NCBI GenBank assembly: GCA_018700895.1
Contig: JABIUV010000008.1
Location: 1-63,821 of the forward strand
From: Bacteroidota bacterium
GTDB taxonomy: Bacteria > Bacteroidota > Bacteroidia > NS11-12g > UBA9320
Length of the DNA: 63,821 bases
Direction of reading: 5' to 3'
This document shows positions 61,974 to 63,143 of this stretch, in pieces; position 1 is the first letter of the stretch, and each line of letters opens with the position of its first letter. The notes under the pieces were generated by a model. That model did no database searches. It was given only the letters and a program-made list of their open reading frames with translations, and was not told the DNA's origin. Made by a program: the position numbers and the translations under genes.

Positions 61974-62045
61974 TTGCGGGAACAGGACTCGAACCTGTGA
62001 CCTTCGGGTTATGAGCCCGACGAGCTACCACTGCTCCATCCCGCG
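61974..62045 (-). tRNA. Initiator tRNA-fMet (CAT)
   Basis: 72 nt without encoded CCA, anticodon CAT in loop CTCATAA. Two hallmarks of an initiator: the first acceptor pair is a C1-A72 mismatch (CGCGGGA against TCCCGCA), and the anticodon stem ends in three G-C pairs (TCGGG/CCCGA). T-arm ACAGGTTCGAGTCCTGT. Monocistronic, followed by its own terminator. Confidence 0.95.
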
Positions 62046-62077
62046 ATAATTGGCACTTTACACTCATCTGATTTAAG

Positions 62078-62099
62078 ACTGACAGTAAAAACTGACAGT
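62078..62099. repeat. 9-bp direct repeats before the integrase gene
   Basis: ACTGACAGT-AAAA-ACTGACAGT, period 13 bp, directly touching the integrase ATG. They could be arm-type binding sites for the integrase or part of an attachment site. Confidence 0.5.
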
Positions 62100-63143
62100 A
62101 TGATATTATATAACGTAACAATTGGACAAGACAAAAAACAACCTTTCATCAATGTTTATTATAACAATAAACGCTATCGATTTTGGAACGGCAAGATCAT
62201 AGGGCTTGATTTAAAAGCTAGGAACGAGCCCGAATTATTAAAAGCAGCGTTTGAACTAAAACTCAGAAAAGGATGGAGACCAAAACCAAGAGTAGAGAAA
62301 AAACTAGAAGAACAACTTTCGGTTGTTCAAGCTCTTGAGAGAGCCGTTACTTTAAAAATATCGCAACGTTGCTCTGAAAGGTTTATTAAAGATGCAAGTA
62401 GAGTAGTGAAGCTTTGGATAAAATTTGAGGCACAAGAAAAAATAGTAGGGTTACAGTTAAATAAACTTGAACCACAAACCATTAAAAAGTTTTTAGTGAG
62501 ACCAACTTGGAGCTCTAAGACACAACGAACCGTAAAGAGCACATTAAGTCCATTGCTCAATGAGTTTAGACCCGGCATTGTAAGCCAAGTAAAATTGAAG
62601 AAACCCATATCGTCACTACACAAACCATTTGACGATGTAAGACTAATCCTTAATGATATTAAAGAGTTTAACAAGAACTTATACCTATGCTGCCTAATGA
62701 CCTATGGCTGTCTTCTCAGACCTCACAGAGAGATACGAGAGCTCACTTGGGGCGACTTTACAGATGACCTTAGCTACATTAATCTTTCAGGTAGTAGAAA
62801 CAAGTCAGGAAGAAATAGAATCGTTCCTGTACCCTCATATATAAAGGAAGAACTATCATCGGGGGAAAGCAATCTTAATATATTCTCAGGGAAGGACGAA
62901 CCCCACAATGGAGACTACTTTAAGACCCTTTGGAGTAGATATAAAAAACAATCAGATTTAATCGAAGAAGGACAAACATTATACTCCTTTAGACACTCAG
63001 GTGCCATTGATATCTTTAAGAGAACGGGCTCTATTACCAAGCTACAAAAAGCTATGGGGCATTCATCTATAAATGTAAGTCTAACCTATTTAAGAGGTTT
63101 AGAAATAGCTGGACTGAAGGAAGAAGATATGCCTATGATTTAG
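62100..63143 (+). CDS. Tyrosine recombinase / phage-type integrase
   Basis: 347 residues. N-terminal arm-binding-like region, SAM-like core-binding domain (about 90-170) and catalytic domain with Arg I in CLLRPHREIRELTWGDF (about 205), the LYSFRHSGAIDI box (H-x-x-R variant, about 300), GHSSINVSLTYLRG with the nucleophile Tyr near 332. All catalytic residues appear present, so it may be active. It lies 55 bp from the 5' side of tRNA-fMet and reads away from it. Content is more A/T-rich than the core genes, in keeping with acquisition. Confidence 0.88.
   Translation: MILYNVTIGQDKKQPFINVYYNNKRYRFWNGKIIGLDLKARNEPELLKAAFELKLRKGWRPKPRVEKKLEEQLSVVQALERAVTLKISQRCSERFIKDASRVVKLWIKFEAQEKIVGLQLNKLEPQTIKKFLVRPTWSSKTQRTVKSTLSPLLNEFRPGIVSQVKLKKPISSLHKPFDDVRLILNDIKEFNKNLYLCCLMTYGCLLRPHREIRELTWGDFTDDLSYINLSGSRNKSGRNRIVPVPSYIKEELSSGESNLNIFSGKDEPHNGDYFKTLWSRYKKQSDLIEEGQTLYSFRHSGAIDIFKRTGSITKLQKAMGHSSINVSLTYLRGLEIAGLKEEDMPMI

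Follow-up and report, generated by a model that had tools for sequence, protein, structure and literature searches.

An integrase gene that begins close to the 5' end of a tRNA gene raises the question of whether it marks the edge of a mobile island and, if so, why it seems to lie on the wrong side of the tRNA. Such an arrangement is found at the right end of the window, the 63,821-nucleotide stretch of Bacteroidota DNA analysed here, which is the entire contig C27 of a genome of 2.42 Mb in 59 contigs (Table 1). The earlier note, made from the letters of the window, had described a complete tyrosine recombinase next to tRNA-fMet, with 9-bp repeats ahead of it and remnants of nuclease and lectin genes behind it. 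This description holds: the tRNA 5' end and the integrase ATG are 54 bases apart, and the repeats, the HNH-like frame with its in-frame stop and the lectin fragment are all present. The tRNA was judged to be of the initiator type from its sequence and its position in relatives, and panC also lies near the right end of the window. An 84-aa part of the HNH-like frame (63263-63517) had no Pfam match. The contig end falls within an 85-bp repeat of the lectin gene (63605-63821, copies 96% identical), which is a likely reason for the assembly break.

Table 1. Features at the right end of the window (positions of the whole 63,821-nucleotide stretch)
Feature	Position	Strand	Remarks
114-bp direct repeat	61939..62052	.	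100% identical to C6:106-219, same orientation; attachment block
Contents of attachment block	61939..62052		terminator-like hairpin, whole tRNA and 7 bp
Terminator-like hairpin, 3' of tRNA, within repeat	61939..61967	-	by eye
tRNA-fMet, tRNA-Met(CAT), displaced copy	61973..62045	-	without TAnnTTTG promoter element on 5' side
Island left end up to integrase start	62053..62099	+	diverges from C6 copy and from empty sites of relatives
ACTGACAGT no. 1, putative arm-type integrase site	62078..62086	+	family trait
ACTGACAGT no. 2, putative arm-type integrase site, touches ATG	62091..62099	+	family trait
Tyrosine integrase, 347 aa, complete	62100..63143	+	PF00589, E 5.2e-11
Integrase gene 3' tail	63077..63143	+	stretch recurring as cassette boundary in related islands
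HNH-like reading frame with in-frame stop, cargo facing integrase	about 63157..63517	-	by eye
Lectin repeats, cargo, cut by contig end	63574..63821	-	PF14200, E 6.2e-14; PF00652

The second half of the answer lies on another contig of the same genome. The earlier note had proposed a search for a second copy of the tRNA end or of the 9-bp repeat, and both were found on contig C6, which carries the entire 114-bp attachment block and, on its island side (positions 6-27), the same paired ACTGACAGT repeat. On the far side of the C6 junction are the host promoter and the genes that, where relatives have an empty site, adjoin panC. The sequence ahead of this tRNA copy, TTG-N19-TATCTTTG, fits the Bacteroidota promoter consensus, and a search for TAnnTTTG upstream of the window copy found none. 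On C6 and in the two nearest relatives (L109 and L116), ATAATTGACTGCAAAGATAGG comes after the tRNA; in the window, ATAATTG is continued by GCACTTTACAC. As the tRNA-adjacent sequences of the relatives agree with C6 and not with the window, island DNA is joined to the window copy, and the host promoter adjoins the C6 copy. The window tRNA-fMet is therefore a displaced copy and not the working gene: what lies 5' of it belongs to the island, so that the integrase has the usual position within the element. The anomaly that the earlier note had seen in the position of the integrase thus dissolves, since the side is wrong only when judged from the remnant. The right end of C27 matched no other contig of the genome and, with the island between C27 and C6 unassembled and the gap unbridged, the joining of the two contigs rests on comparison. 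No circular form of the island was seen.

Comparison with relatives supplies the uninterrupted site. Within the genus, panC was detected in 14 of 19 genomes and the C6 gene gB in 12 of 19, the own genome being counted in both cases. Regions from eight relatives were compared, with G007 left out (panC and gB about 60 kb apart); panC and gB share one contig, a few kb apart, in seven of the eight, and G010 contributes the panC side only. In seven of the eight, ARAGORN placed a tRNA-fMet in the interval from panC to the C6-side gene; it detected no tRNA there in L110. Five of the seven (L111-L115) have the tRNA on the opposite strand, between the same genes. An integrase at this site was matched in none of the eight. 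The relatives carry the empty site for the island. The conservation of the whole arrangement in all relatives, which the earlier note had named as evidence against an island, is thus contradicted, and its proposal of a mobile-island edge is upheld by the second junction and the empty site together. Its observation that panD is missing behind panC is correct, but the use of this absence as a sign of the island was rejected: this genome has panD on contig C2, and the gene was detected in 18 of 19 genomes within the genus, so that its absence behind panC says nothing.

It is highly improbable that the host simply has a pair of tRNA-fMet genes, in tandem or dispersed, and that the integrase lies beside one of them by chance, even though a bacterial genome often contains two or more initiator tRNA genes and C27 and C6 are not joined in the assembly. 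Such a pair is at odds with the relatives, where panC, one tRNA-fMet and the C6-side gene stand together, with the restriction of the paired repeat to the two junctions and with the absence of the promoter at one copy. Instead, we assign a probability of about 0.9 to the reading that the window holds the left junction of an integrase-bearing island, integrated at tRNA-fMet by a lambda-type Int and belonging to a group whose relatives carry cassettes bounded by integrase tails. Judged from the anatomy, integration of the island by Int is close to certain, and the window edge is an island end of a known, textbook kind. Paired ACTG-type arm sites close to the two island ends would anchor the lambda-type Int, which would have carried out recombination between the host tRNA and a tRNA copy brought by the island. 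The working gene would now be the copy behind the host promoter, the other having been pushed to the far end of the island.

The 9-bp repeats are consistent with such a role. The pair has a period of 13, i.e. ACTGACAGT-N4-ACTGACAGT. Two copies of ACTGACAGT in the window are mildly unusual (at least two copies in 8 of 100 shuffles); the pair without mismatch occurs in the 2.42-Mb genome at C27:62078 and C6:6 only, and the backward control pattern occurs nowhere in the genome. Among 34 family loci, a paired ACTGnC motif precedes the start codon in 29 and a looser form in the other five. Pairs are found close to the right end as well: L038, L039, L041 and L042 have one form, L035, L055 and L060 a second (both partly by eye). 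The repeats are a family trait of the island ends and most likely arm-type integrase sites.

The family was gathered with an alignment of five integrases and comprises 40 loci, all titled Bacteroidetes, Bacteroidia, Flavobacteriales or groups within these. Viral contigs yielded only three distant relatives, and the matches among phages and plasmids were weak (one phage record at 24% identity, two plasmid records at 25-27%). Six loci have no readable integrase start, so that layout counts use 34. An antisense tRNA 3' part lies within 160 bp upstream of the integrase in 30 of these, and an unusual side for the window integrase was accordingly rejected. The other four have a contig end (two loci) or the 5' half of a sense tRNA, by eye a tRNA-Ala (L066 and L069). 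The predicted structure of the integrase (mean pLDDT 77, pTM 0.44) has three strands plus one helix at its N-terminus, resembling an arm-binding domain. Its best match among solved structures is full-length lambda Int (1z1b; E 9.3e-9), with a TM of 0.36, at which only the overall kind can be relied on. Complete sister islands measure 4.6-10.5 kb from integrase start to intact tRNA in nine named loci, and this genome has one of 7.0 kb on contig C25. A phage or satellite origin of the C25 island was rejected, as none of seven cargo ORFs scanned matched PHROG at 1e-3. Known defence cargo in that island was likewise rejected, with no PADLOC match among eight proteins, the window integrase being one of them; a 69-aa ORF of the island was left out of both scans. 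The region in G158 (L154) is a decayed relic.

What sets the family apart from ordinary tRNA islands is the recurrence of short copies of the integrase gene 3' end, found in 15 of the 40 named loci and in the C25 island. The other 25 loci show no extra tail copy, some of them because the contig is short, and the C27 window contains no second one. As a control, 72-bp codon windows were tiled over 30 full integrases and compared with 47 loci (748,588 bp). Most windows gave 0-5 copies outside integrase genes, mostly pieces of frame-broken integrases, and the last three gave 9, 18 and 32, so that no part of the gene other than the 3' end recurs in this manner. At E 0.1, 35 tail copies were found, 29 of them in named loci with a mapped integrase gene. 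Searched with a sequence model of the tail, 108 genomes of the order included 13 with copies, and 395 drawn from the class included 10 under a stricter limit (own genome counted in both). The copies bound cassettes of 232-2948 bp, 30 of 31 of which (the near-identical L074 and L075 both included) hold an ORF of at least 50 aa; the longest ORF faces the integrase in 26 of the 30. Several cassettes have more than one ORF, and several ORFs start, by eye, like lipoproteins or secreted proteins. A Pfam scan of seven proteins, the window lectin among them, gave a mixed set that included Lipocalin_4 (below cut-off), an alpha/beta hydrolase and a TPR/M48 protein. In relatives and in the C25 island, though not in the C27 island, the cargo forms cassettes bounded by integrase 3' tails, and the tail would act as a joint for cassette gain, loss and exchange through either Int or homologous recombination.

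Three explanations of these arrays were weighed. The first is that islands were stacked successively in one tRNA and that the older integrases decayed down to their 3' tails. Longer relics are in keeping with it, namely C-terminal open frames of 137 aa (L073) and 87 aa (L074/L075) and a tail copy in L062 that matches over 165 bp. Further, differences between tail copies and the nearest integrase are distributed by codon position as in coding sequence (0.11, 0.057 and 0.219), as expected of former genes. However, random decay should leave all parts and sizes of the gene, which the 0-5 copies of the non-3' windows do not bear out, and ARAGORN detected no tRNA separating the tail copies of the mapped arrays. 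Stacking followed by decay is possible, but we consider it rather doubtful.

A second explanation is that Int takes up circular cassettes at a core site lying within the 3' end of the integrase gene, the new tail restoring the gene and the old one being displaced, as in tRNA integration. All 29 testable tail copies are on the integrase strand, 27 downstream and two upstream of the integrase gene. The copies usually end at GATATGCC and the stop codon (the L048 copy at 1530 is cut short), with left boundaries 11-165 bp ahead of the ATGCC anchor. With L075 removed as a duplicate of L074, 10 of 34 boundaries cluster at the catalytic Tyr codon, 48-54 bp before the anchor, a clustering that uniform draws reached 2 times in 5000. 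L073 contributes two of the ten, which share upstream sequence and are not independent. Around this point the tail consensus reads, by eye, AACCT-N7-AGGTT. A precedent is offered by phage Mx8, in which, according to excerpts of PMC6070905, attP lies inside int and integration gives int a new 3' end. The remaining 24 boundaries fall elsewhere, though, no circle was seen, and the inverted repeat is weakly kept and lacks structure (three predicted pairs over 42 copies, -0.12 kcal/mol). By eye, an anticodon-loop-like reading of the tail core (TTNNNAG) is not kept across tails. Insertion by Int at the end of its own gene is possible, but likewise rather doubtful.

Evidence of exchange comes from a 990-bp cassette shared by three species: the G010 copy is 99.6-99.7% identical to those of G015 and G011. 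G010 and G015 carry it at the same tRNA-Met, with host flanks of 82% identity, and G011 carries it at tRNA-Asn. To judge from these comparisons, it has evidently moved between species. Its edges are sharp, and G011 and G015 have different tails on either side of it; the tail therefore does not travel with the cassette, which counts against insertion by Int. A third explanation is that homologous recombination through the conserved integrase 3' region exchanges and adds cargo, with Int moving whole islands only. It would account for the mosaic integrases, since the two of this genome are 43% alike over codon columns 0-200, 94% over 305-345 and 79% in the tail, with the same pattern in L045 and L054, both from Flavobacteria bacterium MS024-3C. 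It would also account for cassette edges that fall within tails at varying points and for tails that do not move along with the cassette. Copies of only 11-31 bp would be poor substrates, however, and the sharp boundary cluster would be unexpected. We regard homologous recombination as a serious possibility, if still short of an even chance.

The three explanations cannot be separated from sequence alone. Should Int act on the end of its own gene, a self-regenerating platform may be envisaged, in which a lambda-type, tRNA-directed Int captures circular single-gene cassettes at its own 3' end and the array records the captures, an idea that we put forward as speculative. Each capture would then renew the integrase tail and leave the old tail as a boundary, and a function like that of integrons would have been reached independently, without IntI or attC. 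This would be a second kind of cassette-capture system besides integrons.

Among the closest known systems are the tRNA islands of the Islander type. They likewise have a tRNA and a displaced 3' fragment in the same orientation, with island and integrase between them, and 3760 of 3919 islands are listed with a 3' fragment in the excerpted account (PMC4383910). The present locus has the integrase at one end, two tRNA copies in the same orientation and an empty site, as a tRNA-targeted island would. In contrast to the Islander-type islands as described there, its displaced piece is a whole tRNA with a terminator, and its relatives carry tail-bounded cassettes. Tycheposons, likened here from their description in excerpts of PMC10872708, share the tRNA border, the tyrosine recombinase, variable cargo and an occurrence in aquatic bacteria; the border and the recombinase are both found here, and tail-bounded cassettes do not figure in that description. 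The additive flexible genomic islands of Methylophilaceae, in excerpts of the same source, combine variable genes with recurring gene-end copies as the present family does, but the piece repeated is the last 20 bp of tRNA-Lys and not an integrase gene 3' end. Phage Mx8 uses its int-internal attP for its own integration, and the excerpted account describes no cassette array (PMC6070905).

Integrons resemble the arrays in having a recombinase gene and a single-orientation array of mostly single-gene cassettes between repeats. They differ in that the integrase here is of the lambda type, the array stands behind the 3' end of its gene and the tails have no attC-like fold. Membership was rejected on this lack of fold and on a score of 19.4 bits with the integron integrase profile TIGR02249 (cut-off 265). 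Tail-bounded arrays were not found in a search of open-licence PMC papers, a scope that makes the result weak evidence of novelty. As far as the searches show, the cassettes are new and not integrons, in a setting near that of tycheposons and additive islands, and they may be a new way of collecting genes. The family merits attention because these Flavobacteriales appear to collect small genes in tail-bounded arrays and because one cassette has evidently moved between species.

Finally, three local arrangements may be recorded. Window positions 62998-63090 share about 100 bp at 94-100% identity with the integrase gene on C25 (G000:C25), as after gene conversion. In L071 (10850-11490), an integrase lacks its own 3' end and a tail copy lies about 450 bp downstream, as if something had inserted into the integrase gene. 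In L074/L075, a 2.9-kb block (about 8806-11709) is present at two places of one genome at 99.6% identity; it holds the 87-aa integrase end, a cassette and a tail copy, and a transposase-like ORF lies nearby.
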